A DNA stretch of 23,656 nt from a virus: positions 1 through 23,656 of IMG/VR virus record IMGVR_UViG_3300025759_000707; one strand, written 5' to 3'. The notes beneath the pieces were generated by a model. That model was not told the DNA's origin, did not search any database, and worked only from the letters and a program-made list of their open reading frames with translations. Below, in pieces: positions 7,570 through 23,656 of this stretch (positions within the stretch are counted from its first letter, which is position 1; each line of letters opens with the position of its first letter). The translations under genes and the position numbers were made by a program.

Positions 7570-9148
7570 GTTTAAAAGGCTAACAAGGGGTCTTAAGCTT
7601 CTTTTCTCTCATGTGTTTACGCCTATTTCTAGCGTGCTTCAGTTGCTAACTACTGATGGTGTCAATGCAGATGACTATGAAAAGGAATACGGAACCTTTA
7701 GGGTTAACATTAATATTCCTTATGTGAATAAGTTTACCAAGCTAAAAGACTCTGATCGCTACAGCACGATTACTGTTCCTTTTATCCTGCCTGCTTTTCA
7801 GGAAGTTTTTGATTCAGATAACTCTGAGATCAATGACTATGAACTCATTGAGGTTTCGATCAGCCACGATACTAGGGGCGAAGCAAGCCGGCTAAATGGC
7901 ATCAGAAAAGATAACACTGTTAACGAAGAAGGTACTCAAATCCACGGAGAAGGTAATGCTTACACTCTCCATCTAATGGAAAAAGAGTTAGACACAGCAA
8001 CCATTGATGGAACTGCCGCACAGAACGAAGTTTTTAAACTTCATGTCCCTGAAATAGCTTTGCTTGATACTTTCAATAGAGCAAACCCCTATGTGCAAAC
8101 AGGTATTTCTGCTCAGATTCGTCATGATAGATCTTATCTTATTGAGTTTGTTCCCGAGAAAAATGAGCAGCCATTTTTCTCTGTAACTGTTAGTCTTAAG
8201 CTTAAGCATAAGTTAACCTTTAGAGATATTGGATCTGACATCCAAAACATTCCTGCGCATAACGGGGCGTTTAATAACACAACTGTTACAGCGGTAACAC
8301 CTGCAAGCAATGCGGTTATATCTGCTGATAATGCTGCTGGTGTTAATACTAACATGGAAACAGTAGATGCAATTATTGATCGTGGTTTAGCTGGCGGATA
8401 CAACAGAGATGGAAGCAGGCGCTACAAACAAAACCTAAGGTCAGATGCTGGCTATGATGTAATTGCTGTTCCAATGTTTGGTAGCTGGTCTGTTGTTGAG
8501 CCTGCTTCAACAATTCCTATTGGCAGTAGCGCTTCTGAGGTAGCTGCTCTTGCTGGGGATTTGCCATGGTCTGCAAACGCTGTTGGTGGTCTTGATTCTA
8601 TGGATCGAGCAATTATCCCGCTTCAATATCCAATGACCATCCATCATGTGTTAATCGCAGTAAACTATACCAATCCTGATCGAACACTAGTGTCGGCAAG
8701 GCCAACTCAAGCAACGTTTAAAAACGAGGTAGGCGTCGGGCTTTTGCAGGGAATCAGAGCGGAAGACTTTGCGATTCAGCAAGTAGCCTACAATGAATGG
8801 CTACCTGCTGATTTGGTCCCCGCTAATCTAGTAGACCAATTTGCTTCAGGCGACAGCACGAAGCCGTCTACTACTTATCTTTGGGACGTGCTTCCTTGTC
8901 CGCTCGTTGGCACTGGAGGCAAAGGTTATAAAGCTCAAGGGCATCCTGTCTATGCTGCCAAGGGTCAAACGGGCACAACAGCAAGAAGCAATATTGCAGG
9001 CGGAGCACCCGCAACAGCGGGCTGTGAACAAGCACTAGATATTCGTTGGAAGATTTCAGATACTGGAAACCCAACAACGATCAATGGGTCTGTTGTTGGC
9101 TGGCCTGGTCATTGGGTTTATATCATTGGTAAGAAACATTTGATTTGA
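7562..9148 (+). CDS. unrecognised virion-type protein (528 aa)
   Basis: I do not recognise this family. ATG lies 8 bases inside the end of the previous gene. Residues 1-30 are basic and hydrophobic (FKRLTRGLKLLFSHVF), which could be an anchoring helix. The rest is strand-rich with Asn/Asp turns (YGTFRVNINIPYVNKF near 42, FFSVTVSLKLKHKL near 205). The C-terminal half (about 270-520) is Gly/Ala/Thr-rich and closes with VVGWPGHWVYIIGKKHLI. It is probably a tail-fibre or decoration protein working with the preceding 311-residue protein. A capsid role cannot be excluded, because no capsid gene is recognisable in the window. Confidence 0.6.
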   Translation: MAKFKRLTRGLKLLFSHVFTPISSVLQLLTTDGVNADDYEKEYGTFRVNINIPYVNKFTKLKDSDRYSTITVPFILPAFQEVFDSDNSEINDYELIEVSISHDTRGEASRLNGIRKDNTVNEEGTQIHGEGNAYTLHLMEKELDTATIDGTAAQNEVFKLHVPEIALLDTFNRANPYVQTGISAQIRHDRSYLIEFVPEKNEQPFFSVTVSLKLKHKLTFRDIGSDIQNIPAHNGAFNNTTVTAVTPASNAVISADNAAGVNTNMETVDAIIDRGLAGGYNRDGSRRYKQNLRSDAGYDVIAVPMFGSWSVVEPASTIPIGSSASEVAALAGDLPWSANAVGGLDSMDRAIIPLQYPMTIHHVLIAVNYTNPDRTLVSARPTQATFKNEVGVGLLQGIRAEDFAIQQVAYNEWLPADLVPANLVDQFASGDSTKPSTTYLWDVLPCPLVGTGGKGYKAQGHPVYAAKGQTGTTARSNIAGGAPATAGCEQALDIRWKISDTGNPTTINGSVVGWPGHWVYIIGKKHLI

Positions 9149-9156: not shown

Positions 9157-9741
9157 ATGGCAACGATGGCAGACACAGCTTTCCAACGAAGATCAGCAGC
9201 AAGGAAACGCGGCAAAGCTGCAACCGAGGCTAGGGTTGGAGTAGCAGAAGATACGCTAGGTCGATTTGATGAGAGCGCTGAAGACCGGCAACGGAACATT
9301 AGATACGGTTCGGCCAGGGGGTTTGCAGCAGCAAACCCACAGGGCCGAATCGCTTCGGGCGGCGGGTTCATGGGCGCTGCTTCTCAGGCATCTCTTGACG
9401 CTGAAATGGCTGGAATTCGACAGCAGCAACAAGATGATCGAGAGCGCGCAGGCTTAGCCATGGGCGTTGTAGAGGCAGAGCAAAGCGCTGCTGAGTATGA
9501 TGCTCAATCAGGCAGCGATGAAGAGGATTACATCCAGGCTCTTGGTGACGCTGAAGATGCTATTGAGTTAGCTATTCGAGAAAACCGTGGCTGGGTAAAT
9601 GATAGTGAGTCAGCAATGGAAAGCGCTGTTCGAGCTGAGGCTGCAAAAATTAGAGGGCGGCACCCAGACGCTGCAAGAGAGCTTGAAAATAAATACCTTC
9701 GAGAAGGTGCTTCAGGCTACAAACAGATTCACAATAACTAG
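9157..9741 (+). CDS. small internal virion (ejection) protein, gp14-like by size and position
   Basis: 194 residues, against 196 for T7 gp14. ATG 9157 follows GAGGTGA (9147-9153). The N-terminus is Ala/Arg-rich and helical. A Gly/Ala segment at about residues 50-80 (ARGFAAANPQGRIASGGGFM) is followed by a long polar helix with QQQQ (near 90) and Ala/Glu heptads. This pattern is common in small podoviral ejection proteins that help build the channel across the envelope. It is first in a block of three genes of rising size (194, 704, 2835), as in T7 genes 14-15-16. The assignment is from order, length and composition. A strong hairpin lies within it at 9311-9347. Confidence 0.65.
   Translation: MATMADTAFQRRSAARKRGKAATEARVGVAEDTLGRFDESAEDRQRNIRYGSARGFAAANPQGRIASGGGFMGAASQASLDAEMAGIRQQQQDDRERAGLAMGVVEAEQSAAEYDAQSGSDEEDYIQALGDAEDAIELAIRENRGWVNDSESAMESAVRAEAAKIRGRHPDAARELENKYLREGASGYKQIHNN
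9311..9347 (+). promoter_or_regulatory. strong intragenic hairpin with AGCA loop
   Basis: GGGTTTGC (9319-9326) pairs with GCAAACCC (9331-9338) around loop AGCA. CGGCC (9311-9315) pairs with GGCCG (9343-9347) below a small internal loop. It lies about 155 bases into the gene for the 194-residue internal virion protein. Confidence 0.5.
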
Positions 9742-9750
9742 GATTAAACA

Positions 9751-11865
9751 ATGGCTAGGATTGTACCCGATTCAGTATTCCGTAGAGGCTCTCGTCAACG
9801 TGAATATAAGCGAGACGCTAAAAGCAGAACCCTGGATCAGTGGACATCTCCCGAGGGTGTAGCAACTGCCTGGAAGCTTACCGATAGTGTTGGCGGTGTA
9901 ATCAATGCTGCTGTCCAGGAAAAGAAGGGTCGCGATAAGATCCTCTCTGAGATGGATAGCACCGGGAAAATGATTCAGCTTAATCGCTTAGCAGAATCAC
10001 AAGGCACTCCTGAGAATGTATTAAAGTTACAGAATGCACTTGCTGAAGCTGGCTTTGACCTTCCTAAGTCTAGAAAACCTGATGGGTCTTTTGATGCTGC
10101 AATGGGTCCTGAAACAAGGGGCGCAATGGATCGATTTAAAGCCAGGCAAAAAGGCCGGCTTCGGATGGACCCCTCTCAGTTGTCTCAGTATGCAACTCTT
10201 CAGGATCGAGCCGGCGGTCGTCTCGATCGCCTTGTTAGTGGAGCGGGGAGCCTCGTCGGTCATGACGCTTCTGAGTTAGAATTTAAACGACAGCAAGCTG
10301 CGCAGTCTCGAGTTCAAGCATTACAAGATCAAGCACTAGCAGCTAACTCTGCTGCTCTTGGTTACGATATGGCTGCCGGAGCAGAGACAATGGCAGAACG
10401 AGAGGCGGCAACAAACATGTCGCTTAATGCTTTCGATAGGACGCGTGCTGCTACGTTAAGTGGCCAAGCTTCTAACCAGGGTCAGGCTGCTATCGCCCAA
10501 AACCTTCAGCGTTTATTCCCTGGTCGGGCGCCGCAAAAACGAGAGCCCCGCAAATACATGGGTCCTGGTCACAAAAAAGATAGAGTCAGAGAACCTCATC
10601 GTTTGTTCAATGCTGTTCATGGCGGCAAAACCAATCAAGGTCTTAATAGGATAGCATCACTTAAGCGAAACCCTAAGGATGCAAACTACGTTACACCACT
10701 AACCGCTGATGATGTAAGATCTACAAAGATTCCAGATGGCACGCTCGCTCTTACGCCAACAAAAGAACAAAAAGACAGAATGAAGCTGGGCGACGCAGCT
10801 AGAGTGGAAGTTCTGGGAGAGCTAATCAACGGCTACCAACAGTCAATGGCACTAGCAAAACACCCAATGCTTGATACAGCAATTAGGCTTATGGCTAAGT
10901 CGCAAAGAAACCTAACAATAGCACAGCAAAGATCTGCTTATGCTACTGTTGATGATGAGCTTTTCCGGGCTGCTGTGGGTGATCCCTTTGCAGCGTTGAT
11001 GGCTTCTGGTGCTCCTCCCGGAGCGATCCTTGAGCAGTTGAAAAATAATGCTTCTATGCTTGAATCCATGGAGTCTTATAATGACTCAAGTGTTCCCGCA
11101 CAGACTGTACTACCGGTTCAGGATGAGCCTGAAAAGATTGATCCTCTTGAGCCAGACCAAAAAGAATCAGGAATGCAGCAGGATCAAAAAGAACCCGCTA
11201 GTCTTGAAGACGAAGTAGCTAACGCTAAAGATTCACCCCTTAGTATTGGTGATCTTTTTAATAAGCTTAAAGACGCTGCATCAGCACCAACTGAACCAAC
11301 TGAAAAAGTTAAAGCTGTGCCGGCTGTGCCAGCTAAACCAAAAAGGGGAAGCGCTGAGCACGCTGCTGGCTTAAAACCTTATGACCGAGGCACAAGAAGC
11401 AAAAGACAGATCGAAGAAGATAAGAAGAAAAAAGCAGCCAGGAAAAAACGAAGAGCAAATCGAGGCCCATTGGTTCTTGAGGGCGACAACCAAACTAGAG
11501 AACAAAAACTAGAAGCTCAGAGCAGAAGGCTCGCAGCGCAAGGTCAACCTAAAGCAGGTAGCACCCGTGCTCGTGGTGTTGCTCCTGCTGAACAAGAGCG
11601 TGCTAGTGGTTCAGCAGCCGAGCGCAAAGCTCGGACTGCTGAAGCAAACAAATCAAGCAAAGCTGTTAACCGCAGAAAAGAAGTAGCTAAACAAGTTAGA
11701 TCTTTAATGGGCAGACTTCCTAAGACAACCTTTAATCCTAGAACAAAAGCAGGCCGAGGAAAGATTAGAGAATTTAAAGTCTGGGCAACAAAGACTTTAA
11801 TGGCAAACGACAACGCAGAAACATTTAAGAAAGTTAAAACCGCTGCCAGCAAAGGACAGTTCTAA
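9751..11865 (+). CDS. internal virion (ejection) protein with a peptidoglycan-binding-like segment, gp15-like by position
   Basis: 704 residues (T7 gp15 is 747). ATG 9751 lies behind TAGGATT (9739-9745). Residues about 88-132 resemble the PG_binding_1 three-helix fold: LQNALAEAGFDLP, then DGSFDAAMGPETRGAMDRFK, matching the family pattern LQ..L...G....DG.FG..T..A...FQ. Residues about 165-260 are a Gln/Ala-rich helical region. From about 455 onward the protein is charged and low-complexity, with Pro/Thr/Lys-rich linkers and a very basic patch near 550-575 (KKKKAARKKRRANRG). Peptidoglycan binding would suit a protein that crosses the cell wall during DNA entry; that role is inference. It abuts the next gene with TAA-ATG. 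Confidence 0.7.
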   Translation: MARIVPDSVFRRGSRQREYKRDAKSRTLDQWTSPEGVATAWKLTDSVGGVINAAVQEKKGRDKILSEMDSTGKMIQLNRLAESQGTPENVLKLQNALAEAGFDLPKSRKPDGSFDAAMGPETRGAMDRFKARQKGRLRMDPSQLSQYATLQDRAGGRLDRLVSGAGSLVGHDASELEFKRQQAAQSRVQALQDQALAANSAALGYDMAAGAETMAEREAATNMSLNAFDRTRAATLSGQASNQGQAAIAQNLQRLFPGRAPQKREPRKYMGPGHKKDRVREPHRLFNAVHGGKTNQGLNRIASLKRNPKDANYVTPLTADDVRSTKIPDGTLALTPTKEQKDRMKLGDAARVEVLGELINGYQQSMALAKHPMLDTAIRLMAKSQRNLTIAQQRSAYATVDDELFRAAVGDPFAALMASGAPPGAILEQLKNNASMLESMESYNDSSVPAQTVLPVQDEPEKIDPLEPDQKESGMQQDQKEPASLEDEVANAKDSPLSIGDLFNKLKDAASAPTEPTEKVKAVPAVPAKPKRGSAEHAAGLKPYDRGTRSKRQIEEDKKKKAARKKRRANRGPLVLEGDNQTREQKLEAQSRRLAAQGQPKAGSTRARGVAPAEQERASGSAAERKARTAEANKSSKAVNRRKEVAKQVRSLMGRLPKTTFNPRTKAGRGKIREFKVWATKTLMANDNAETFKKVKTAASKGQF

Positions 11866-14800
11866 ATGGGTTGGGGTGATCCAGGTGATCTAGAGCTTGA
11901 TGAAGATTCCTTTCGGACTACAAAGGCTATTGGCCGTGGCATACTTGCCGCTGGTGCATTTGCCGGAGCAGCCAATCCAATCTCGGGTCAAGCTGCTTAT
12001 GCGTACCGCCGAAACAAAAGAAAAAGAGCAAAGAACGAAGAAGTAGAGCGGATCAAAGAAAGCTTAAGGACTCACGCTGTTGAGGCTCAAGGAGATAAAT
12101 ATCTTCTCGATAACGGCTGGACCCAAGAAGACATTGCTAAGCTCAAGGTTGCTCGAGATGAGCACCTTGATAACATGCGCGTGCCCAGGACCGAGCGTGC
12201 CGCAAAGGCTGGCTACCCAGGAAGATTCAAAGAGCGGACACCTGAACGTAATCGTTTCATTAGCGGCTTTAATAATAACATTAAAATTTCTAATAAAGCT
12301 CGTGGCATCGGGGATTCAACCGATCTCAATCAGTACTCTTATGAGCCCCTTGTTGGGGATGCTGAAAACTCTAGGCCAAGTGACAACCCTTATTATGCTG
12401 CCTTGCTTGCAAACCGAGATGATGGGCAACCAGGGTTTTTTGAGCAGCAATTTTTAAACATAGAAGCAAATCAAGCAGGCCTAAGTGAAGAAGACCAGAA
12501 CCGATTAAAAAGCAGCTTAAGAAGCTACCGACAAGGCTACGTTGGTATTGCCGATCGCCATTCTGATTTTGAGTACAGCATGGAATCACCAATGGTGAGG
12601 AGTCATGTTGAGTTTGTAGAGGCTATTGAAGACATGAAGCTGCTTAATGAGCAGCGAGTTAGAGATGGCAAAGAGCCACTAGAGTTTGAAGATATTCTTT
12701 TTGGGCATGAAGCAGACATTTTAAGAGAAGGTATTCTTGCCGCAGCGATGGCTGCTATTGGCAAAGGAGAGCCTATTATTGATGCTCGGACTGGCGAGTC
12801 AATGGCCGAAGACTACCTTGGAACTGCTGAGTACTACGGAGAGTTGTTTGGTCTTCTGGGTACCGCCGGCATGGCTTCTGGTATGATCTCTGATCCAGGT
12901 GGTACAGCGCGATACAAACCCTCCATCCCTGCTTTGATTGCGCTTCCTCTTATGGTTAAATTTCTCGGTGGAAAGCTGGCTCCGGGGATAGCAGGCAGAA
13001 TTCAAACCCACATAGAAAAAGTGCCTGAAGGCAAGGTTGCTCGGTTCATTGCCCCGATAACTGATACCGCTAATAGAGCAGTAAAAATTATCCCTGAACC
13101 TGTAAGGGATCTTAATGCTAGGCTCCGCCCTAAAAGGCGGACGCCGGGCGGAGTAGAAAAAGGAGCTAAAGCTGTTGAGGATGCTTATGCAAAAGCAGGC
13201 AAGGAAGGCTTGCTCGAGCTTATTGAAAAGCCGTTGCCTGGTCAGGTTGTTAGCTACAAGAAGCGCGAAGCCTTAGGCAATGTCGCCATGTGGTACCTTA
13301 AGGGTAGCCTGCTTGGCATTCCTGAGATTGCAGGTATCCCGATAATTGGTCAGCTAAGGAATGCTCTTCGTGCTGTTCCTGGTTTAGAATCTAGAATCTT
13401 TAAGACGCTAGAAGAAAGCTTTTCAACCGAAGAGGGTTTTGCAAACAGGGAGCTTTTAGAAAAGGCAAGGGAAGCAGCAGAGAACCCTAAGCGAGTAGAC
13501 GAGTTGCTTGCTGGTTTAGTTGAGTCCGTTAAGGAAGAGTACGGAGTAGAGGTTAGCGATCCTCTTTCTGATGGAATGAGAGACGGCTCATCAAAACTTC
13601 CTGATGTTGTAGCAAAAGAAAAAGAAATATCAGGCGAAGTTGTTATTGGAAGTGATACATCTAGAGATGTTCAGGCACCTGATTTAATTCTTGATGTTGA
13701 TGAAGCTGCCGGTCCTGAGGCGCAAGCTGCTAAAGCTGCGCCTAAACCAAAAGCAAAACCAGACAGCAAAGAGTTTCAAGATCTAGAAGCTTCGTGGGAT
13801 AAGCCTAAGCAGCAAGCTGAAGAAGCTAAACCTGAAATCAAAGGCCCCTTAGCCGATCTAAACGATCGTATTGAAAATCTAAATCGTCAAATTGAAGAAG
13901 GCTTTCCGGTCAAAGAAGCTGAAAAAACTAAGCCTGAGACCCAACCCGTTAAGCCTAAGGACCCCACTCGTCGAGGCCAGGCTACAATTCCTACCTGGAA
14001 AGAACTTCAAGCAGCCAAAGAGCGCTACAGCAAAAGCCCGTCTAAGAAAAATAAAGACCTATTAGATAAAGCTACTAGAAAATGGGAGCGAGCAGGAAAG
14101 CCTGAGCCCAGAGCCGTAGTCGAAGACAGGGAAAAACTCCCAGAGCCAACAGACCTCGAGCAAGATTCTTATACAGTCGATATTGGTATTGGCAGTAAGG
14201 TAGAAGAAGTTGTTGTTGTTACGCCGGAACAGGCAGCTAGAGATGCTCGCATTGCTAATGCTGAGCTTAATGTTACTGGGATTAGAAAGGCTTATTCAAG
14301 CCTTGGTGACGAGATTCCTGCTGGTCTAATTGAAAGCATTAGAAGCTCAGATCTTGAGCCGTCTACAATTAGAGACTTAATTAAAACCGGGGAGCCTGAC
14401 CCCTTTGTTCGTGATGCTATCGCTGATGCAGTCATGTTTGAAAAAGAAGGCCAGGTTAATTCAGCGCAAATCAAGACCCTTAAGAGATTACAGAAAAGAT
14501 ATAAGAAACTTATCTTAAAGGGCGAGGGTATGGATACAGTCCTTCAATCACTCACCCCTAAGGGTGAGTTGATTGAAGGCTCTAAACTGTTCAAGCGAGT
14601 TAACCAGGACGAAGGCTTCCAAGGGAAGAGCGGAGCAGTACGCCGACCCCTTAAGAGCGATCAGATTAGGGAGCGTGACGCTGACCTGGAACCCGGTACA
14701 AGTGCCATGGTAATTGCTGAGCCTAAGTTTACTGGCTCAGGAAAAATTGCGGCAGGTGTTCCTGAGATGCAGGACACTCAGGGTAAAAGCAGAAAAGAAA

Positions 14801-17800
14801 TTCAAGAGAATAAAAAGGCTTATCAGTTTGAGCAAGAGCGGAAAGCTGGGCTTACAACAAACGATAAGGCGAGAGAAGCTTTTCAAAAGCTCCCCCTTAA
14901 ACAACGAGCCAACAAAAGAAAACAAGCCAGATCAGATCTACAAGCACTAAAGCCTGATGATCTTAAAAACATGGAAGAATCATCTATAGCAAAACCGCTT
15001 AAGGATTTGAGCCTTAAAGAGCTTAAAGAAGTTGTTAAGCAGCATGCGCCAGAGATTAATAATAAGCCCGGCAACGAAAGAAACTCAAAAGCAAAACTTG
15101 TTAGACTTTTAGGCCATAGCGGGCGAGCTGCCTATCTAGCTGCAACTGATATTGTTGCGGGGCAAAGAGCTACGGAATTTTGGCGGCTATTAAACCAAGC
15201 AAAAGAATCTGTTGCGAGCGTAAAAAGAGGGAACCTTAAATCTAGAAGAGTCTTACAGAATATCTTTAAAGAAACTGTTGGATCAGGATTGCCTAACTCT
15301 TTAGTTCAGGCTGTCTTAAATGAAATCCAACCTAGCATTGAACAAAGCCCGTTAAGAACGCAGGCCGGACAACCCTACCAAAGTCTTGGCTCGCATATTC
15401 CTGACTACCCCTTTCCTGATCTTGTTCAGGAAATTGAAGCAGGCAAAAGGGGTGTGGTAACAACCACGGCTGTTGCTGGCAAAGTGAGTCGCCCTCTTAA
15501 AATTAAAGTTAGAGATGAGATCGGAGCTATCTTTCAGAGCTACGAGTCAGCACTTTCAAAGCTTAGAAGCAAACCGGATGAGTACGCAGGAAAAGCAAAT
15601 GAAGTTTTAGAGCGCGTCCGTGATGAGCTTAAAGAATTAAAAGCTGATTTAGATGCTGCTACAAGAGGCGCTAAGGGTGTTGTTAGTGGAAACTTTACTC
15701 GAGGTTTAAACAAGTGGGTTAAGTCTTCTTACTTTGGCGAAGTTGAAGTGCTTAGAAGAAAGAGGGTTGAGAACTTCCAGAAAGATAATCCTAATATTAA
15801 TGTCCTTGATACTGATGGGACTCAGGCGGATGTCTTTAAGCAAATTATTGAAGAGGTTTCTGTTGGAGTACAGAAACTAGAAGACACAATTGCTTTAACT
15901 CCCAACACTCAACTTAACAAAATAGTTAGAGCCGTTTCCAGTGAAGCGTACGGAAAGCCTCAGAAGACTGTATCTCCTAAAGTTAAAGCTGTGCTTAAAG
16001 AACTTGGCCCAATGGATACAGTTGTTCCTTTTGAGAGGCTTGATGAAATAAGCAAAAGCCTAGATCAAAGAGATTTATCTGCTAATGAAATCTCAGCTCT
16101 TCGCCGAAACATTAATAACCGTCGAGCTATCTCTGCCCCTGATCAGCCAGTGCAAAATGCTGGAGCTACGGTGCCAGTCACTCCTGAGCAGATCCGTGAA
16201 GTCAGACAAACCAAACCTCTTAACAATGACGTTGAAGCAATTGAAGTTGGCAAGGACACTCCGAGCGAAACCGTTTCTCAATTCGTAGAAAAAGTTCGCG
16301 AGCCAGAGGTAAGAGACCTAGGTGCAGAGTTTGCTGCGCAAGTAAAAAGCGACAGGGTTGCACCTCCTCGTTTGCCTGAAGAGCTTAAGCCCAAGGCAGA
16401 TGAAGCACCTGAGTCTAAGCCAGCAGCTAAGCCCACTCTTGGTGAGGTCTTTAATTTCCTGGATGAAACAGAACCTACTGCTAAACCTGAGCCCACTGCT
16501 AAGCCTGAGCCTGCTGCTAAGGCAGAAGCCGAGGTTCCTGATTACGGTGGCAAAGAAGGCTTTAAACCTAAGGACAATGAATTAAAACCTGACCCACGCC
16601 CAGTCAGAGAAATGGTAATGGATACCACTGAGTGGGATGCTCACCATAAAAAATATTCTGATATTCAGGCAAGGCGCGAGCTAACAAAATCAGAGCAAGA
16701 CTTCTTTGATTCAGAGAACGCTCGCTTTAGCGATGAATACTGGGAAGGTATAGTCTCGGAGCCAGCACCCCCGCCTAAGACTCTTGTCGATGAACTTGTA
16801 GAACAAGGCGAAAGAGAACGAGCGGGACTTAAGGCTGAAGAAGCAGAGCTTGCTGATATGGTTCAGCGCTCTAAAGAAATGAAGGATGCTTCAATCCCTG
16901 AAAGGATTGAAGCAGGCCTTCCCCCTGTGCATCCTAAATTTAGTGGAGAACAGAAAGCTAAGACTCCGGAAAGTACCGAGAAGACAGGGCCAAAAAGAAC
17001 CCCGCTTCCGCAAGTTGTAATTGAGCCTCCGCCTATGACTCGCCGTATGTGGAGCGCAATCTCTCGTGTTGTAACAAAGTTTGAGGGCAAGAAAATTGGC
17101 TTAAGCGAGCGAGAAACATCTGCTTGGAAAGCTGGCATTTATGAGATCTTAAGCAACGGAAGATCCCTGCTCGCATCAGACGCAATGAGGTTTACTGTTC
17201 GCAATAAACTAGCAAATTTAATTGCTTTAAAATTGCCTGAAAGCTTTGGCGGAAAAGCTAATGCTAAAAACTTTGAAGCATTAAAGAGTGCCATAGATCA
17301 CTACCTTAATAAGTTTAAGGTTCCGTTTATTGGGTCTGACAACATTGCGTCTTGGATAGAAGGCGACGCAAAGAACACCCTATTATCAGAGGCAAGAATT
17401 CTTAGGCAGGTTCCAGGTAAGCTTAGGATCCTAGGAGACGCAGAGACAATCCTTGGTGAGTTCTCTGTTGATGAAGCAATCAAAGCTGCCATTGTAGATC
17501 TTGAGGGCTCTAAGGGGGCTATGGATGCTATAGCAATGGAAGCGCTAGAGCAGGTTAACACCAACGTTGCTGGCATTGCTAAGGGCAGATCAATTGGCCG
17601 ATCTATTATTAATGATCTAAACAGGCGCAACGTAGGAGAGACGCAGACAGGCACTCAGAACTTGAGCCGCCTTGCTCTTTCTCATCTTGTTGCTCGTGAA
17701 GCTGAGCCACTCGGCTTGCCTAATCGTGTGGTTAACCGAGAAGGTAAAACTGTTAAGGTTACACCTACAGAGCTTATTGATGGATCAGTAGAAAAGAATG

Positions 17801-20373
17801 TTGCGTCAGCTCAAGCTGATCCTCGATCCTTTATAGCGACAGTTGAAGAGGCTATTGGGCGCAAGCTTACGGACAAAGAAGTCACTGATTATGTCGGTAA
17901 GCAACCAGAAGACAGCAGCAAGTGGACGGTAAACTCAGACTCTGTTGTTGGGAGATGGCTGGAAAGTTTAAAGGAGTACAAAACGCTTGGAGAGCGGGAT
18001 AAAAAAGGAGTTAAATCAGGAGTCATGAGCATTCTTGATGACGCTTTGCCTGATGAAATTAAAAAAGCGCTCAAAGAAAAAGCGGAAACACAAGAGCAAA
18101 CAAACCCTGTTGAGTTCCAGGGCGACTTTCTTAACGATGTTTATGTGCATCCTGATTGGCACGGCAGAATGTCAGATCAAATTTGGTTTAAAGATGCAGC
18201 TGCTAAATACCAAGGCTCCTATATGGGTTGGTTATTTGGCAGGCAAAAGTCAGCCATCACTGTGATGCGCGCAAAAACAAACCTTGGAAACACAGGCGGT
18301 CATCTTATTAATATCGGACTAGCTACCGGGGAAAACCCTGCTGCTATTTCTTCTAGGTTTGCTGCTGCAATCTTTAATGTTTGGAAGTACCGCAAAAACC
18401 CCAAGGCTTTTGCTGAAAGCAATCCGCAACTTGGTCGAGCTATGTATCAAGCTAAGCGGCAACGACTTGTTAAGACAACTTTTTCTGAAGTAGAAATTGC
18501 TGGGCTTATTGAGCAAGGTTATTCGCCTGATCAAATTGTTGAGTTTGCGCAGAAGCTAGGTGTGCCACCAAAGGTAATCAAAGGCTGGCAAAAGTTCCTT
18601 GATCTTGTTCCTCGGAATCTTGAGCGAGGACGCAAGGCTCTTTATGCGTGGGAAGATTCATTCCCTAAAACGGCAGAGTTTACTCGGCACTTTATAGATC
18701 TAGATAATTACCTGGGCATGATTAAAGCAGGCAAAACAGTAGAAATTACTACCGGAAAAAACAGAGTTGTTACGCTAGTTAAAGAACCAGGACTGGCGGG
18801 AACTAGATCCAAATGGAGAAGAGGGAAGCAGCAACTTTCAGGCGCTCAGCTTGATGAGTTAATCTCGCAAGCAGCTAAGTATAAGACTGACTTTTTAATT
18901 CCAGATTATAATAAAGTTCCTCGTGCTATTCGCAATGCTAGATCTGGAGTTGGCATGCTTGGCCTTAACCCTCTTATGCAATTAGCTAGTCCCTTTATGA
19001 GCTTTGCTTACTTAATGCTTGACGCTCCAGGTAAGCCCGGAATCCTTGCTAACACACTGCTTGGAAACAGTTTAACTCCTATGTTTAAAACAAATGACAT
19101 GGGAGTTAATCTTACATGGGCTGCCTCTGAGCTTGGCAAAGGGGTTCGCAAAGCAATCATGACTCAGCAAGCAGCGCTGCAATACAGCAAGGAAAAAGAT
19201 TACTACCTTGCTGCTGGGAGGCGTGCCCTAAGGCACAGCCTCCAGCAGGGGCCAAACCCTCTTGGTCTTTTCAGGCCATCAGATACAGCGGGATGGATTA
19301 AGGCGTACGGAGTAAATAACTTTAATGCCATGTCTCAAAGTGAATTGTTCTGGAGCCAGCTTGCTTATGCTGCTGCGCTAGGAACAAGCGGGTTGCCTAA
19401 GTTTGTAGATAAAGGACTGCCTGTTAAGATCGGCCGTGGTTTAGACTCTGAGGTTAAAGAGATTGAGTATGAGCCTGGCTACTTAAACTCACTAAGTAGA
19501 TCCCATCGAACTATCTTGAAGCGATCATTAAGAATTAAACAGGAACTTATAATCACAGCAAAAGAAAAGAAAAAGGCACTGCGTGCAAAAGATCTATTTG
19601 CTCTTGGTTTTCTTAGTGGCTCTCCACTAGCAGAAATCTTTAACAGGTTTCAAAGCGGCAAAGCTTACGGACGAGATGTCGAAAGCCCTTACCTTACTTT
19701 GATGTTTGATCTTGGAGTAGCAACTTTGCCGATGGGCGTTGATACCGTTCAAGCAATTAAAACTTTGTCACCTAAGTATGGACTAATAGATGAGAAGAGT
19801 GAGTTCTCTGCTTATCGAAACATGATCAAACAGGAAGAAAGAAAGATCGGTAAAGACTTTAGTACCTGGCCTAGAGAGCAGCAGATTAAATTCATGACTG
19901 ATCACATGCTCGACGCTATGACTCAGATTTATTTCCGAGAAATAGAAATTAGTGACCCGGCTGTTATTGATCCTAACTCAAAAGAAAAAGCAAAAGACCC
20001 TCATTGGTTTAAAGATTTTTATGACGGGTTCGACACTTCTATTAACAGTTACTATAAGCACAAAATTAAAACGGCGAGCAGCCCAGCAGAAAGCCGCCTT
20101 GCTCAAGACGACCTTGATCATTTCATGAGAGAAATTGAGAACCACAAAAGAAAGAATCGATCTTTAATGTATAGCATGGGTCAGCTTATCAGTGGGAACA
20201 AAGGTTATATGCCTGATGTTAAAATCAAAGGTATGCCTGTCCAGCTAAGAGATCGAGAGTCAGTCATGAGCGAGGAGCTAGACTTGAAACAAAGTCGGAT
20301 TGACCTTAACAAGGAAGCGAGAAGACGAGCTGCTACTTTTGAACAGCGAGTACAAACAGAGAAGGAAAAATAA
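11866..20373 (+). CDS. giant internal virion / ejection protein (2835 aa), gp16-like by position
   Basis: The gene fills 8.5 kb without a stop and is about twice T7 gp16 (1318). ATG follows the previous TAA directly. Hydrophobic Gly/Ala-rich segments occur at about residues 22-45, 324-377 and 472-497, and near 2361-2388 (GVGMLGLNPLMQLASPFM). Residues about 1040-1083 look like a SAP/HeH-type nucleic-acid-binding motif (LKDLSLKELKEVVKQHAPEI, then KAKLVRLL). Pro/Lys/Glu-rich linkers span about 612-780 and 1492-1722. The region around 2110-2160 (GWLFGRQKSAITVMRAKTNL) loosely resembles LPD38-type domains of phage polyvalent proteins. I see no convincing lytic transglycosylase motif. A role as the largest DNA-ejection protein is inferred from gene order and segment types. 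Hairpins lie inside at 13123-13152, 14541-14579 and 19211-19248. Confidence 0.72.
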   Translation: MGWGDPGDLELDEDSFRTTKAIGRGILAAGAFAGAANPISGQAAYAYRRNKRKRAKNEEVERIKESLRTHAVEAQGDKYLLDNGWTQEDIAKLKVARDEHLDNMRVPRTERAAKAGYPGRFKERTPERNRFISGFNNNIKISNKARGIGDSTDLNQYSYEPLVGDAENSRPSDNPYYAALLANRDDGQPGFFEQQFLNIEANQAGLSEEDQNRLKSSLRSYRQGYVGIADRHSDFEYSMESPMVRSHVEFVEAIEDMKLLNEQRVRDGKEPLEFEDILFGHEADILREGILAAAMAAIGKGEPIIDARTGESMAEDYLGTAEYYGELFGLLGTAGMASGMISDPGGTARYKPSIPALIALPLMVKFLGGKLAPGIAGRIQTHIEKVPEGKVARFIAPITDTANRAVKIIPEPVRDLNARLRPKRRTPGGVEKGAKAVEDAYAKAGKEGLLELIEKPLPGQVVSYKKREALGNVAMWYLKGSLLGIPEIAGIPIIGQLRNALRAVPGLESRIFKTLEESFSTEEGFANRELLEKAREAAENPKRVDELLAGLVESVKEEYGVEVSDPLSDGMRDGSSKLPDVVAKEKEISGEVVIGSDTSRDVQAPDLILDVDEAAGPEAQAAKAAPKPKAKPDSKEFQDLEASWDKPKQQAEEAKPEIKGPLADLNDRIENLNRQIEEGFPVKEAEKTKPETQPVKPKDPTRRGQATIPTWKELQAAKERYSKSPSKKNKDLLDKATRKWERAGKPEPRAVVEDREKLPEPTDLEQDSYTVDIGIGSKVEEVVVVTPEQAARDARIANAELNVTGIRKAYSSLGDEIPAGLIESIRSSDLEPSTIRDLIKTGEPDPFVRDAIADAVMFEKEGQVNSAQIKTLKRLQKRYKKLILKGEGMDTVLQSLTPKGELIEGSKLFKRVNQDEGFQGKSGAVRRPLKSDQIRERDADLEPGTSAMVIAEPKFTGSGKIAAGVPEMQDTQGKSRKEIQENKKAYQFEQERKAGLTTNDKAREAFQKLPLKQRANKRKQARSDLQALKPDDLKNMEESSIAKPLKDLSLKELKEVVKQHAPEINNKPGNERNSKAKLVRLLGHSGRAAYLAATDIVAGQRATEFWRLLNQAKESVASVKRGNLKSRRVLQNIFKETVGSGLPNSLVQAVLNEIQPSIEQSPLRTQAGQPYQSLGSHIPDYPFPDLVQEIEAGKRGVVTTTAVAGKVSRPLKIKVRDEIGAIFQSYESALSKLRSKPDEYAGKANEVLERVRDELKELKADLDAATRGAKGVVSGNFTRGLNKWVKSSYFGEVEVLRRKRVENFQKDNPNINVLDTDGTQADVFKQIIEEVSVGVQKLEDTIALTPNTQLNKIVRAVSSEAYGKPQKTVSPKVKAVLKELGPMDTVVPFERLDEISKSLDQRDLSANEISALRRNINNRRAISAPDQPVQNAGATVPVTPEQIREVRQTKPLNNDVEAIEVGKDTPSETVSQFVEKVREPEVRDLGAEFAAQVKSDRVAPPRLPEELKPKADEAPESKPAAKPTLGEVFNFLDETEPTAKPEPTAKPEPAAKAEAEVPDYGGKEGFKPKDNELKPDPRPVREMVMDTTEWDAHHKKYSDIQARRELTKSEQDFFDSENARFSDEYWEGIVSEPAPPPKTLVDELVEQGERERAGLKAEEAELADMVQRSKEMKDASIPERIEAGLPPVHPKFSGEQKAKTPESTEKTGPKRTPLPQVVIEPPPMTRRMWSAISRVVTKFEGKKIGLSERETSAWKAGIYEILSNGRSLLASDAMRFTVRNKLANLIALKLPESFGGKANAKNFEALKSAIDHYLNKFKVPFIGSDNIASWIEGDAKNTLLSEARILRQVPGKLRILGDAETILGEFSVDEAIKAAIVDLEGSKGAMDAIAMEALEQVNTNVAGIAKGRSIGRSIINDLNRRNVGETQTGTQNLSRLALSHLVAREAEPLGLPNRVVNREGKTVKVTPTELIDGSVEKNVASAQADPRSFIATVEEAIGRKLTDKEVTDYVGKQPEDSSKWTVNSDSVVGRWLESLKEYKTLGERDKKGVKSGVMSILDDALPDEIKKALKEKAETQEQTNPVEFQGDFLNDVYVHPDWHGRMSDQIWFKDAAAKYQGSYMGWLFGRQKSAITVMRAKTNLGNTGGHLINIGLATGENPAAISSRFAAAIFNVWKYRKNPKAFAESNPQLGRAMYQAKRQRLVKTTFSEVEIAGLIEQGYSPDQIVEFAQKLGVPPKVIKGWQKFLDLVPRNLERGRKALYAWEDSFPKTAEFTRHFIDLDNYLGMIKAGKTVEITTGKNRVVTLVKEPGLAGTRSKWRRGKQQLSGAQLDELISQAAKYKTDFLIPDYNKVPRAIRNARSGVGMLGLNPLMQLASPFMSFAYLMLDAPGKPGILANTLLGNSLTPMFKTNDMGVNLTWAASELGKGVRKAIMTQQAALQYSKEKDYYLAAGRRALRHSLQQGPNPLGLFRPSDTAGWIKAYGVNNFNAMSQSELFWSQLAYAAALGTSGLPKFVDKGLPVKIGRGLDSEVKEIEYEPGYLNSLSRSHRTILKRSLRIKQELIITAKEKKKALRAKDLFALGFLSGSPLAEIFNRFQSGKAYGRDVESPYLTLMFDLGVATLPMGVDTVQAIKTLSPKYGLIDEKSEFSAYRNMIKQEERKIGKDFSTWPREQQIKFMTDHMLDAMTQIYFREIEISDPAVIDPNSKEKAKDPHWFKDFYDGFDTSINSYYKHKIKTASSPAESRLAQDDLDHFMREIENHKRKNRSLMYSMGQLISGNKGYMPDVKIKGMPVQLRDRESVMSEELDLKQSRIDLNKEARRRAATFEQRVQTEKEK
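14541..14579 (+). promoter_or_regulatory. strong intragenic hairpin with CTAA loop
   Basis: Bases 14541-14557 pair with 14562-14579 along 17 base pairs with one bulged T, leaving loop CTAA. It lies inside the giant ejection gene and encodes LQSLTPKGELIEG. A 17-bp near-perfect stem is well beyond what codon choice gives by chance. It has no U-run. It may pause ribosomes or polymerase, or be cleaved by RNase III. Confidence 0.6.
16474..16527 (+). repeat. three tandem 18-bp units encoding PTAKPE / PTAKPE / PAAKAE
   Basis: Three consecutive 18-base units (16474-16491, 16492-16509, 16510-16527) encode PTAKPE, PTAKPE and PAAKAE within the giant ejection protein. The first two differ by only a few third-position changes. 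The repeat sits in a Pro/Ala/Lys/Glu-rich linker (about residues 1490-1560) and probably forms a flexible or extended spacer between folded parts. Tandem units of this kind can change copy number between related phages. Confidence 0.8.
19211..19248 (+). promoter_or_regulatory. strong intragenic hairpin with CTAA loop
   Basis: Bases 19211-19227 pair with 19232-19248 along 16 base pairs with two single-base bulges; the loop is CTAA. It lies near the 3' end of the giant ejection gene, about 1.1 kb before the smaller downstream genes. Like the others it lacks a U-run. Confidence 0.55.
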
Positions 20374-20374
20374 A

Positions 20375-20494
20375 ATGGCTGAACTAATTAAGTATGTAGG
20401 ACCAGAGGGAACTCGTGTCGTGGTACAGATTCCCGATCCGGAACCCGTAAAGAAACCAGCTAAGAAAAAAGCTGCGCCCAAGAAGAAGAAGTAG
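20375..20494 (+). CDS. tiny lysine-rich protein (39 aa)
   Basis: ATG 20375 lies one base after the stop of the giant gene (TAA 20371-20373), with GAAGGA at 20361-20366 as ribosome site. The product opens with MAELIKYVGPEGTRVVVQIP, a small strand-rich motif, then turns into a Pro/Lys/Ala tail ending KKKAAPKKKK. Such tails bind nucleic acid or acidic surfaces without sequence preference. Its stop TAG (20492-20494) overlaps the next start as TAGTG, so it is part of the chain of coupled genes. Function unknown. The same frame extends upstream to an ATG at 20300 inside the giant gene, but the site at 20375 has the better ribosome signal and spacing. Confidence 0.65.
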   Translation: MAELIKYVGPEGTRVVVQIPDPEPVKKPAKKKAAPKKKK

Positions 20495-21186
20495 TGAACC
20501 CGTTTCTTATCAATCAGCGCCCTGTAAGTGATGCAGACATTTGGTTTTCTCGTCTTAGTGGTGAGGAATCTACTGCAACGTGGCACGACATTACAACCAA
20601 CGGGAACAATGGAACAGCAAACAACGCAGGTGCTTGTCTTGCTAACTATTATTTTCGAGGAGGCGGTGCCGGCTCAGATGATATGGTAAGCACAGCTTTT
20701 GCTGGCAATGTTATCAAGGCTGGTGAAGCTTTTACTTTGGATGGCTGGGTTACTCGTGATGCAGGCGAGCTTGGCCAGGTTACTCTTTGGGGTTGTCGAA
20801 GGACTGGCCCTAACGGCGGATGGGTTCACCGAGAGAACGCGGTTGGGGCTTCCGGGCCTTTAGACTTGGACATGTACAACCCCGCCTATTTTAGTTTGCA
20901 AGATGTCATCCCTGATATCCGAAGTGGTGAATGGCATCACATTGCTATGAGCTGGTCTCCTGACTTTACGCCGGGAACACACGGGTATTGCCGCCATTAT
21001 CATAATGGTATTCAAAGCGACGCACAGAGTGTGCAGAATTTTGCAGATGGTGACATCTTTGAAATAGCGGGAAGCACTTACAACCGATGGACTGGGTACA
21101 TTGATACGGTAAGAGTTTATCCTCGTGTCTTGAGCGCCGATGAAATACTTAAGAACTATCATGCCGGCAAGCCGGCGCATTTATAG
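20494..21186 (+). CDS. LamG / concanavalin-A-like lectin-domain protein (probable receptor-binding or decoration protein)
   Basis: 230 residues starting at GTG 20494, which shares its G with the preceding TAG. The sequence follows the LamG-type jelly-roll pattern: FTLDGWVTRDAG near 79 (family 'ftvs.Wv'), GEWHHIAMSWSPDF near 145 (family 'g.WhHvA.t.d'), YHNGIQ near 170 (the 'Y.nG' turn), and YNRWTGYIDTVRVYPRVLSA near 198. It closes with DEILKNYHAG, a typical end for this domain. Such domains bind glycans and occur in phage tail fibres and spikes. Position after the ejection block and before lysis genes fits a fibre-associated adhesin. There is no signal peptide. The domain call is firm by pattern; the virion role is inferred. 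Confidence 0.8.
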   Translation: MNPFLINQRPVSDADIWFSRLSGEESTATWHDITTNGNNGTANNAGACLANYYFRGGGAGSDDMVSTAFAGNVIKAGEAFTLDGWVTRDAGELGQVTLWGCRRTGPNGGWVHRENAVGASGPLDLDMYNPAYFSLQDVIPDIRSGEWHHIAMSWSPDFTPGTHGYCRHYHNGIQSDAQSVQNFADGDIFEIAGSTYNRWTGYIDTVRVYPRVLSADEILKNYHAGKPAHL

Positions 21187-21194
21187 GAAGAACG

Positions 21195-21530
21195 ATGAGC
21201 GTTAACTCACATCTTATTGCTAACAACCCAGTATGGACAGATGCTACTGTCGTCACTGATGTTGCTGCTGCTGGTGCATGGCCCGGTCCAGGTACCCCAG
21301 TTCCAAGCTTGGTTCCGATAATCCTTGCCAACGGACAGGTTGCAACTTCTGTTACTATTTCAAACACGGGGCCTGTTAATCTTTATGTTGGCTCTTTAAC
21401 GAATCACGGGATTCTGCTTCAGCCAGGTGCCGCTATTTCTCTTGCCCTTAGTTCTAGTGCTGCACCTTATGTCCATGACCTAACACCAGTAACTGGTACA
21501 GGTACATGGGCAGTCGTGGCCTACGAATGA
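21195..21530 (+). CDS. small strand-rich protein of unknown function (111 aa)
   Basis: ATG 21195 has a good ribosome site, AGGAAGA at 21185-21191. The product is rich in Val, Ala, Thr, Gly and Pro and predicts as beta-strands (ATSVTISNTGPVNLYVGSL near 50, ISLALSSSAAPYV near 81). This is the look of a small immunoglobulin-like or beta-sandwich decoration or fibre-tip protein. It has no membrane segment. Its stop forms an ATGA overlap with the endolysin gene. It may assist the neighbouring LamG-like protein, but there is no direct evidence. Confidence 0.65.
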   Translation: MSVNSHLIANNPVWTDATVVTDVAAAGAWPGPGTPVPSLVPIILANGQVATSVTISNTGPVNLYVGSLTNHGILLQPGAAISLALSSSAAPYVHDLTPVTGTGTWAVVAYE

Positions 21531-21910
21531 CACCCGGATGGCCTCCGAACTTCAGTCCGATCGAGTTCCGTTGCAAGTGCTGCGGGACCATTGGGAACGA
21601 GCATACCGCACGCCATCTGGCGTGGGAACTGCAACGTATCAGGGATCTAGTAGGCCCGCTGAAGATCAACAGTGCTTACCGATGCCCGAAGCACAACAAG
21701 AAGGTAGGCGGAGCATCGCAAAGCCTGCACCTTGAGAGCATGGCAGCAGACCTGGTTAGTGCAGAGGTCACGCCCGACAAGCTACAAGATACGATCCTTG
21801 GTTTGATGGAACACAATCGCATTCCCAATGGTGGGCTTGGAAGGTACAACTCCTTCACTCACTACGACATTAGATTAACCCCAGCACGCTGGGATCACCG
21901 GAGCAAGTAA
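21527..21910 (+). CDS. endolysin, peptidase M15-type (D-Ala-D-Ala carboxypeptidase-like)
   Basis: 127 residues when started at ATG 21527, which forms a perfect ATGA overlap with the previous stop; an in-frame ATG at 21506 would add seven residues and lies deep in the upstream gene. Residues 10-20 (SPIEFRCKCCG) form a Cys-rich opening often seen in M15-type phage peptidases. SAYRCPKHNKKVGGASQS leads into the zinc motif SLHLESMAADL. His68 and Asp75, with His112 of THYDIR, are the expected metal ligands. The enzyme would cleave peptide bonds in peptidoglycan cross-bridges. It has no signal peptide, so it would depend on a holin; the holin-like gene lies two genes downstream. GC-ending codons are more frequent here than in the virion genes. 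Confidence 0.88.
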   Translation: MTPGWPPNFSPIEFRCKCCGTIGNEHTARHLAWELQRIRDLVGPLKINSAYRCPKHNKKVGGASQSLHLESMAADLVSAEVTPDKLQDTILGLMEHNRIPNGGLGRYNSFTHYDIRLTPARWDHRSK

Positions 21911-21911
21911 G

Positions 21912-22202
21912 ATGAGGGACAAGAAGAAAAAGAATATTAGCTATCCAGAAGTCAGCAAAAAGCTCGGGCCTAAATACGGCAAGATGCATAAAGGAAACGA
22001 AGACTATAAAGAAAAAGAACTTGGAGCTAGAGGATACGCCGTCCCTGTTCCCGGTGTAAAGAAATCTGTTAATGATAAAGATAAAGCTGATGCTGTTAAG
22101 AAAAAGTTTAAGGTTTCAAAAGTAGAAGACCCAAAAATGGCTGCACGAAAAAAGTCAGCGGCAGTCCTTAGAAAAATGCAAGCAAGCAAAGGTAAAAAGT
22201 AA
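21912..22202 (+). CDS. small lysine-rich basic protein (96 aa)
   Basis: The gene begins one base after the endolysin stop (TAA-G-ATG). Nearly a third of residues are Lys. Features are the N-terminal KKKKNISYPEVSKKLG, a central turn GYAVPVPGVKK (near 41-51) and a basic C-terminal tail (AARKKSAAVLRKM). It has no membrane segment or Cys. The motif Y(A/G)(V/L)PVPG recurs in the gene at 22628. I recognise no function; a DNA- or virion-binding accessory protein is possible. Its stop overlaps the holin-like start as TAATG. Confidence 0.6.
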   Translation: MRDKKKKNISYPEVSKKLGPKYGKMHKGNEDYKEKELGARGYAVPVPGVKKSVNDKDKADAVKKKFKVSKVEDPKMAARKKSAAVLRKMQASKGKK

Positions 22203-22423
22203 TGGATAAGATGAAGAGTCGTAAGCTGTGGCTGTCTGTGTTGGCAGCCCTCCTCCCTGTGCTAGCTAAGCATTTCTTTCCTGACCTGCCGACCGAAGCT
22301 ATCGTTGCTTCAGTCATCGGCGCTGTGTCTGGCGTGCTCGGTATCAGCATGGAAGATGTAGCTAAGCAGAAGCGGGCTGCCCTGGAGGCAGCCGCTTCCA
22401 CTGCAAAAAAGCCCTCAGAATAA
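22202..22423 (+). CDS. two-TM holin-like protein (zero-frame product, 73 aa)
   Basis: 73 residues. The opening (MDKMKSRKLWLSVLAALLPV) and a second hydrophobic stretch at about 31-49 (TEAIVASVIGAVSGVLGI) give two membrane helices joined by a short loop (FFPDLP). A charged, Ala-rich tail follows (AKQKRAALEAAASTAKK). Size, topology and position after an endolysin fit a small holin, which would permeabilise the inner membrane. Similar 'KSRKxWL...LPxE' proteins are common in phages, often only annotated as holin-like. The end of the gene carries a perfect A AAA AAG slippery heptamer, so part of the product may continue in the -1 frame. Leucine codons here are mixed, including CTG and CTC. Confidence 0.75.
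   Translation: MDKMKSRKLWLSVLAALLPVLAKHFFPDLPTEAIVASVIGAVSGVLGISMEDVAKQKRAALEAAASTAKKPSE
22371..22396 (+). promoter_or_regulatory. hairpin 8 bases upstream of the slippery heptamer
   Basis: Bases 22371-22381 pair with 22387-22396: AGCGG with CCGCT, one bulged G, then CTGCC with GGCAG, around loop CTGGA. This gives 10 base pairs with a single bulge. The sequence GGAGG (22384-22388), which could act as an internal Shine-Dalgarno, is partly held in this stem. Its closeness to the slip site at 22405 makes it a candidate modulator of frameshifting. Confidence 0.45.
22405..22411 (+). promoter_or_regulatory. candidate -1 ribosomal frameshift site (A AAA AAG)
   Basis: The heptamer AAAAAAG is exactly in phase with the zero frame (GCA AAA AAG), the arrangement used in E. 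coli dnaX. A -1 slip re-reads it as AAA AAA GCC and enters a frame open to TAA at 22624-22626. The zero-frame stop TAA follows at 22421-22423. A possible upstream internal Shine-Dalgarno GGAGG is at 22384-22388, 16 bases away, which is further than the roughly 10 in dnaX. I found no obvious downstream stem-loop. Confidence 0.55.
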
Positions 22424-22626
22424 TACCCCCTGTTATACTACGTCCTGGCGATAGCGGCGGCCTTGATCTTTCTCTTAGTGGGAATCATCATCGGTGGGAT
22501 GCTGGTGCTGCTGTTAGACATACGCTCGGACGAGACTTCGACCTCACAGCGCAGCTATCAGCAGGCGCTGCCTGGGGAAAAGCCGCCGATTGGCAAGGCA
22601 CCGTAGGGATGAAGTGGAGATGGTAA
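22411..22626 (+). CDS. -1 frame extension of the holin-like gene (71 aa tail of a 141-aa fusion), no normal start codon
   Basis: After a -1 slip at 22405-22411 the frame runs for 71 codons and ends with TAA 22624-22626. The whole open stretch, from a stop at 22363, has no ATG, GTG or TTG until codon 66 of the tail, so it cannot be expressed by ordinary initiation. The tail has Pro/Gly-rich residues (IIPPVILRPGDSGGLDLSL) and then alternating strands (WDAGAAVRHTLGRDFDLTAQ, WQGTVGMKWRW) with an aromatic end, a pattern like an outer-membrane strand hairpin. The stop forms TAA-G-ATG with the next gene, as at two neighbouring junctions. A one-base sequencing error in the A6 run would also explain the arrangement. 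Function unknown. Confidence 0.5.
   Translation, partial: ALRIIPPVILRPGDSGGLDLSLSGNHHRWDAGAAVRHTLGRDFDLTAQLSAGAAWGKAADWQGTVGMKWRW
22424..22606 (+). other. open frame continuing past the holin-like stop, with a TM-like segment (doubtful)
   Basis: Directly after TAA 22421-22423 the same frame stays open to TAG 22604-22606. It encodes a strong membrane-like stretch (LAIAAALIFLLVGIIIGGML) and a polar tail ending KPPIGKAP. This would suit a small spanin-like or second lysis protein overlapping the -1 tail. No start codon with a ribosome site exists; CTG 22430, TTG, GTG and a late ATG are all poorly placed. The hydrophobicity may simply come from the T-rich third positions of the other frame. I list it because overlapping lysis genes are common in this position. 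Confidence 0.2.
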
Positions 22627-22627
22627 G

Positions 22628-22921
22628 ATGAGACGCTCACCTATGATGGGGTCCTATGGCTTGCCTGTACCCGGAAGATCATCTGGCACACGACCAAGGA
22701 AGAAGGTCCGCTTTACCAGGATGACAGCAGCCGCCCGGAAAGAAGCAGCAAAGAACAAAGCTAAACTAAAGAAGCTCGAGGAACGGTTCAGGAAACTTAA
22801 GATCTTAAATAAAGATCAAAAGATCCCAGCAAAGCCCAAGCCTAAGCAGACTAAAAAAGGTGTAGATAAAGATCTGCATGATGATGCTCGCCGTCGAAAC
22901 ACTAGCATCTGGAGAGGGTAA
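22628..22921 (+). CDS. small Arg/Lys-rich basic protein (97 aa)
   Basis: ATG 22628 lies one base after the preceding TAA, with GGAG at 22616-22619. The product starts MRRSPMMGSYGLPVPGRSSG, then becomes a long basic helix (MTAAARKEAAKNKAKLKKLE, near 32-51) and a Lys/Pro tail (PAKPKPKQTKKG). The GxYGLPVPG motif echoes GYAVPVPG in the gene at 21912, so the two may be distantly related or share a partner. There is no membrane segment. The role is unknown. It is followed by another TAA-G-ATG junction. Confidence 0.6.
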   Translation: MRRSPMMGSYGLPVPGRSSGTRPRKKVRFTRMTAAARKEAAKNKAKLKKLEERFRKLKILNKDQKIPAKPKPKQTKKGVDKDLHDDARRRNTSIWRG

Positions 22922-22922
22922 G

Positions 22923-23282
22923 ATGACTAAGCCTTACTCTAAAAGAACAAGGAACATTATCGAGTATGCCAAGGAGCAGACTGAGCAAGCTCGTAACCTA
23001 GATAGGTATGCGAACAATGCAAAAGCCAGAAAAAAAACTCTTCATAAAAGCATGATAAAGAAAGGCCCGGACGGACAGGATATTATACTGCCGGGCTACC
23101 ATGAAAAAGCTAACGAATGGAATGAAGAGTACGATACGCAAATGGAAATGAAGGACGCTCAAGAGTATGAGACTCCCTTTCCTATGAAGGCCTTGCTCGA
23201 AGCAGCCGTAAGAGAACACGGTATGCCAACTAAAAGTAAACAGGCTAAGCTTAGATCTAAAGCTGCCAAGGCAAAGCGATGA
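22923..23282 (+). CDS. small charged helical protein (119 aa)
   Basis: ATG 22923 is chosen over an in-frame ATG at 22878 because GGAGAGG (22911-22917) lies at proper spacing and the preceding gene ends at 22921. The sequence is mostly polar helix (RTRNIIEYAKEQTEQARNLD), with a central turn (KKGPDGQDIILPGYHEKANE near 48-67), an acidic middle and a basic tail (KLRSKAAKAKR). An A8 run at 23030-23037 is a possible slippage spot but leads quickly to a stop. No family recognised. It overlaps the next gene by ATGA. Confidence 0.6.
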   Translation: MTKPYSKRTRNIIEYAKEQTEQARNLDRYANNAKARKKTLHKSMIKKGPDGQDIILPGYHEKANEWNEEYDTQMEMKDAQEYETPFPMKALLEAAVREHGMPTKSKQAKLRSKAAKAKR

Positions 23283-23584
23283 GTGCTTCCCGCAGTCTTG
23301 CAGCTGCCCGTAACCTGATGAAGAGGCTAGGGCTAAAGGGGTTTAACATTCCTAAGCGCACACCTGACCACCCTAAGAAGTCACACGTCGTGCTGGCTAA
23401 AGAGGGCAGTAAGATTAAGCTTATTCGTTTTGGTGAGAAGGGTGCGAGCACAGCGGGCAAACCTAAGGCTGGTGAGTCTGATCGCATGAAGGCTAAGCGT
23501 AAGTCCTTCAAGGCTCGTCATGGTAAGAACATTGCTAAAGGAAAAATGTCTGCTGCTTACTGGGCTAACAAAGTTAAGTGGTAG
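23279..23584 (+). CDS. conserved phage protein of unknown function (DUF6321-like pattern)
   Basis: 101 residues, starting in an ATGA overlap. The order of motifs is one I associate with a conserved small protein in many aquatic phages: GLKGFNIPKRTPDHPKKSHV, then IKLIRFGEKGAS, then RKSFKARHGKNIAKGKMSAA, ending YWANKVKW. I believe it corresponds to DUF6321, but the number is from memory. The Arg/Lys/His-rich centre suggests nucleic-acid binding, though no function is established. It is the last gene before the closing hairpin. Confidence 0.75.
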   Translation: MSASRSLAAARNLMKRLGLKGFNIPKRTPDHPKKSHVVLAKEGSKIKLIRFGEKGASTAGKPKAGESDRMKAKRKSFKARHGKNIAKGKMSAAYWANKVKW

Positions 23585-23587
23585 ACA

Positions 23588-23618
23588 CACACCCTCCCCC
23601 CTAAGGGGGAGGGGTGTG
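23588..23618 (+). terminator. GC-rich hairpin closing the transcription unit
   Basis: Bases 23588-23600 pair with 23605-23618 in a 13-bp stem with one bulged G (23614) and loop CTAA. The design (C5, one A/T pair, more Cs) copies the hairpin at 137-166. It begins four bases after the stop of the last gene. There is no U-run after it, so termination may be factor-dependent, or it may protect the 3' end of the message. Confidence 0.65.
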
Positions 23619-23627
23619 GTACCTGGT

Positions 23628-23655: not shown

Positions 23656-23656
23656 C

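Follow-up and report, generated by a model that had tools for sequence, protein, structure and literature searches.

Codon-level constraint points to a selected RNA hairpin within a very large late gene of a tailed-phage type contig

A giant open reading frame (ORF) of a tailed-phage type contig carries, within its codons, a 17-pair hairpin whose stem is far beyond chance given the encoded protein and the codon usage of the gene, and constraint at the codon level points to a selected RNA structure in a late virion gene. The contig – hereafter the window – is a 23,656-base IMG/VR virus record that includes a P22/SU10-type portal gene (Pfam PF16510, 1.2e-28); unless stated otherwise, coordinates are those of the whole window and features are on its plus strand. 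That the hairpin (14541-14579) is a selected structure we consider very probable, and it is likely that it acts as RNA; that it does so by causing a pause is possible, and is put forward with some reserve. The reading we favor is a tentative one: a secondary structure selected within coding late mRNA, which would work as a roadblock; the ejection-type genes of this phage group would keep two or more elements of this kind.

The hairpin occupies codons 892-905 of an ORF of 2835 amino acids (11866-20373), with which it is in frame, and encodes LQSLTPKGELIEG plus partial codons. Size and gene order suggest that this giant ORF specifies a virion protein of the ejection type; family searches match it to no named ejection protein and name no function. 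A tblastn search of the giant protein, and of a 704-amino-acid protein encoded one gene upstream, against 50,697 phage records gave no match, while the portal found only matches of less than 60% identity, in 11 records: no annotated phage was found close to the window. Structure prediction for a 103-amino-acid segment was poor (pLDDT 54) and was set aside.

The preliminary description of this DNA reported a near-perfect 17-bp hairpin with a CTAA loop at 14541-14579, and coordinates, pairs and loop are confirmed exactly. The 5' arm (14541-14557, 17 nt) and the 3' arm (14562-14579, 18 nt) form 17 pairs, all Watson-Crick, arranged as a 10-pair lower stem and a 7-pair upper stem, between which one unpaired T (T14569) bulges from the 3' arm; a C-G pair closes the loop (14558-14561). 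The predicted folding energy is -26.5 kcal/mol for the hairpin alone and -29.9 kcal/mol in a 60-nt context, where it corresponds to a z score of -5.9 and where equal stability was found in none of 200 dinucleotide shuffles. Null models that retain the protein gave the same result. In synonymous shuffles of the whole gene (n = 300), in which the protein and the gene's codons were kept and codons were permuted among like residues, the best stem had 8-13 pairs as against the 17 of the real sequence, which bears out the earlier supposition that coding sequence rarely keeps such a stem by chance. The local stability of the hairpin was matched neither in 1000 synonymous shuffles nor in 20,000 recodings according to codon usage.

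A single relative was found, IMGVR_UViG_3300030329_004737 (22,059 bases), which has a homologous ORF of 3004 amino acids; over 2762 aligned codons the two giant ORFs are 56% identical in amino acids and 60% in nucleotides, so the relative is not a close one. Further relatives were sought in viral_contigs (with the hairpin segment, the whole protein, the segment alignment, the C-terminal alignment and a degenerate hairpin pattern as queries), genome_contigs, phages and plasmids, and the searches returned the same single relative or nothing usable (six phage matches had an E of 9). The hairpin of the relative (L007, 6548-6586, minus strand) lies at the aligned codons, shares 37 of 39 bases, and again has 17 pairs (-24.2 kcal/mol). 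It is also the best stem of the relative's giant gene, in which 100 synonymous shuffles produced at most 12 pairs. The two base differences from window to relative – on the 5' arm a C to A that replaces Leu with Ile, and on the 3' arm a G to A that is synonymous – shift the bulge, such that a C-G pair with T bulged becomes an A-U pair with A bulged and 17 pairs are present in both. As a candidate for compensatory change, this is a single bulge-shifting double difference in one relative.

Conservation at synonymous sites, which the preliminary description had named as a check, is evident in the one relative: its stem is not broken by synonymous changes, the outcome that would have counted against the earlier reading, and within the hairpin the same codon is used at 12 of 13 shared residues, compared to 17 of 50 in the rest of protein block 874-944 (Fisher P = 1.8e-4) and to 45% of the 1507 shared residues gene-wide (Fisher P = 4.9e-4). 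Allowing for codon-specific rates, the less favorable of two estimates is P = 2.4e-4. The tract of shared codons begins and stops with the boundaries of the hairpin. Of all 1495 runs of 13 shared residues in the gene, two have 12 identical codons (one of them elsewhere, at 19912), so codon identity taken alone is not unique, and the test is sound only because the stem fixed the place beforehand. Among the 27 local structures of -17 kcal/mol or lower in the giant gene, compared in gapless aligned windows only, that of the focal hairpin ranks first by the fraction of pairs retained in the relative (19 of 22, of which 17 are unchanged). The two other long inverted repeats of the window, at 4774 and 8150, keep the same pairs in neither L004 nor L005; at the 4774 repeat, L004 shows a different fold.

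A chance hairpin, preserved through a constrained peptide (LQSxTPKGELIEG) and codons that happen to coincide, could in principle produce the same pattern. The protein block around the hairpin is itself highly conserved, a single relative is available and some windows without a fold are equally conserved in their codons, all of which would suit this explanation; against it stand a codon P of about 2e-4, for a position that the stem had singled out beforehand, and a simulation of synonymous drift (the relative's codons being drawn from the gene's own substitution table), in which a stem of -24.2 kcal/mol or lower was kept in just 1 of 20,000 draws. We consider chance very improbable. Since only two sequences carry the region, conservation here means one pairwise comparison, without covariation statistics, and it is for this one sequence pair that selection on the hairpin itself, beyond selection on the protein, appears well supported.

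Ten genes of the window were aligned to those of the relative (6585 aligned codons) and scanned in 14-codon windows. The highest of 4298 windows, at 11608 (14 of 14 codons the same, P = 1.4e-5), falls on another hairpin, 11610-11643, in the 704-amino-acid gene one gene upstream of the giant gene. Its 14 pairs enclose a GCAAA loop, an unpaired A bulges from the 3' arm, and not a single letter differs in the relative, although protein identity there is just about 57%. Among the distinct places ranked by the scan, the focal hairpin comes fourth. The second and third places, 7688-7729 (13 of 13) and 2955-2996 (10 of 10), are codon-conserved stretches without a strong fold. We read both the focal hairpin and that at 11610 as selected elements in late mRNA, and both may serve as transient roadblocks to ribosome or RNA polymerase. 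The focal finding gains interest because a partner that is even better kept sits one gene upstream, and is limited because everything rests on one relative.

Hairpins of at least 11 pairs number six in the ten genes (4822, 11610, 12143, 14541, 16887 and 19217), whereas 40 synonymous shuffles contained none in 20 cases, one in 17, two in 2 and three in 1. Only those at 11610 and 14541 are kept in the relative. The hairpin at 19217-19243, which results from codon choice and is missing from the relative, has the build of the focal hairpin (11 pairs, a bulged A on the 3' side) and the same CTAA loop. That at 16887-16914 is a perfect 11-pair hairpin with the arms CTTCAATC/GATTGAAG in common with the focal hairpin, and is likewise not kept; a poorly aligning linker near this site contains, in the relative, a different hairpin that is rich in G+C. 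A spacing of about 2.35 kb between 12143, 14541, 16887 and 19217 (2398, 2346 and 2330) was dropped as a candidate pattern: it is not seen in the relative.

This surplus of hairpins bears on a different account, according to which the element is a specific site for an RNA-binding protein or for modification of the polymerase – RNA operators and nut/put-type elements are the systems to compare – with 11610, 14541 and 19217 as dispersed copies. In all three, one bulge on the 3' side separates the lower stem from the upper; two have the CTAA loop, and the six hairpins of the ten genes outnumber those of the shuffles; but the loops differ (CTAA, GCAAA) and no more than two of the six hairpins are kept in the relative, and we judge this account decidedly unlikely. 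Equally speculative, and of similarly low probability, is its extension to a single phage or host factor, RNA-binding or polymerase-associated, that would read dispersed bulged hairpins in the codons of ejection-type genes and so control elongation of the late message: were it true, it would amount to an RNA code laid over the protein genes of a double-stranded DNA phage.

The CTAA loop also occurs outside coding sequence. As the preliminary description had noted, the focal hairpin has its loop and closing C-G pair in common with an element at the right border: C(CTAA)G is present in the hairpin at 23586-23618, after the last ORF. An intergenic hairpin between the end of the capsid gene and the next gene (137-166) has CTAA on its complementary strand, and hairpins at the same place and of the same shape, with different sequence, are found in L004 and L006. 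The loops vary – the relative has CTTAA in its post-capsid hairpin, and L006 has CTAA within a longer loop – and since the loop is not constant across relatives, the common CTAA is no proof of a common reader. In folds of both the window (131-175) and L004, the outer flanks of the post-capsid hairpin (CTTTC...GAAGG) pair with the Shine-Dalgarno-like sequence of the next gene (GAAGGAG).

The post-capsid hairpin invites a comparison with mRNA processing. Phage hairpins processed by RNase III, of the T7 type, are long stems without a U-tract in late-type polycistronic messages, and in each of these respects the focal hairpin is alike; theirs, however, lie between genes, whereas the focal hairpin lies inside an ORF. 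On this explanation the stem would be cut by an RNase III-type double-strand RNase, or would block 3' exonucleases, and so divide the late transcript or set its stability, a function that may also belong to the intergenic hairpin that follows the capsid gene. The build of the focal hairpin, in which one 3' bulge divides the lower stem from the upper and a short A-rich loop closes the top, does resemble that of the post-capsid hairpin of L004 and L006, which lacks a U-tract and is kept there despite quite different sequence; but the likeness is one of general shape, and in the window the post-capsid hairpin is free of bulges. Moreover, a cut within an 8.5-kb ORF would destroy the message for the full protein, and a stem under translation would be mostly unfolded. 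A processing or stability element seems unlikely, although it is the least unlikely of the alternatives; we favor a transient roadblock, since the ORF around the element is translated and cleavage there would destroy the message.

Partial termination had been suggested earlier for this position; termination finds no support. The focal hairpin shares a G+C-rich upper stem and a short loop with intrinsic terminators but, unlike them, has no U-tract in either window or relative: the stem-loop is stable, and no run of U follows the stem (CTCTAAACTGTT, CTCCAAGCTTTT), which makes intrinsic (Rho-independent) termination unlikely. A scan for terminators across 9700-23656 did not include it. Other candidates were rejected as well. 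An internal translation start behind the Shine-Dalgarno-like GAAGG would lack a common start codon (CTG in the window, CTT in the relative), and a programmed frameshift or bypass is at odds with an ORF that is open through the stem in both sequences. Nor is the hairpin a widespread sequence motif: its core TCACCCCTAAGGGTGA matches nine stretches in viral_contigs, and the giant gene is encoded only by the one belonging to the relative already described; two others that were examined, L008 and L009, are unrelated.

Because all pairs are Watson-Crick, DNA would fold equally well, and with two sequences only, which give no distinction between strands, functions in RNA and in DNA are not separable. 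The element could be a palindromic site that serves as a cruciform, a single-strand hairpin or a dyad protein-binding site in replication, recombination or packaging. Against this stand an off-center and shifting bulge, which makes a poor double-strand dyad, the absence of a turn in GC skew at the focal hairpin, and the rarity of the core among viral_contigs together with the unrelatedness of the two examined examples; a DNA-level role strikes us as quite improbable.

Under the favored roadblock, the sense-strand RNA would fold either in the gap that separates RNA polymerase from the leading ribosome or in the space from one ribosome to the next. The folded stem would then be a transient obstacle, always met at one position of a very long message, and the slowing of elongation there could in turn tune the yield of the giant protein or its co-translational folding. 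Structure-induced ribosome pauses have a precedent in bacteria: in E. coli data (PMC4619774), the majority of structured stretches within coding sequence leave ribosomes unstalled, but at a subset stalling does occur (from 908 stretches, 87 positions lie above the 80th percentile). The pause sites of that study resemble the focal hairpin in being stable mid-ORF stems that need no change of frame; they differ in that the focal hairpin is known from sequence alone, and most such E. coli stems do not pause ribosomes (PMC4619774). If codons of very large phage virion genes do carry a second layer of control, it would be missed by recoding or by protein-only annotation, and the focal hairpin offers a simple test of whether pauses made by structure matter for giant proteins.

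Conserved RNA structures that overlap coding sequence are well known, best of all in RNA viruses. As with those, constraint on synonymous sites holds the stem of the focal hairpin within its ORF; here, by contrast, the setting is a late structural gene on a contig of the double-stranded DNA tailed-phage type, with two sequences only. A literature search, conducted by title and with most subscription papers outside its scope, found no such elements in phage virion genes.

A search of the window against Rfam gave no match at the gathering threshold, and a known Rfam family was rejected on these grounds. The sub-threshold matches include weak ones to CRISPR repeat families for the hairpins at 14541 and 16887, with their common arms, as might be expected of a CRISPR-repeat mimic (an RNA anti-CRISPR) inside the gene. 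The scores are far from threshold (19.8 against a gathering value of 45, and 19.7 against 37), and miRNA models score alike; furthermore, Racrs are small non-coding RNAs, and the candidates tested were chosen with a predicted promoter (PMC10651486). Such mimicry we find scarcely credible. Elsewhere in the window, 21506-21910 encodes a Peptidase M15 family protein (PF08291, 3.5e-19), a probable lysis enzyme.
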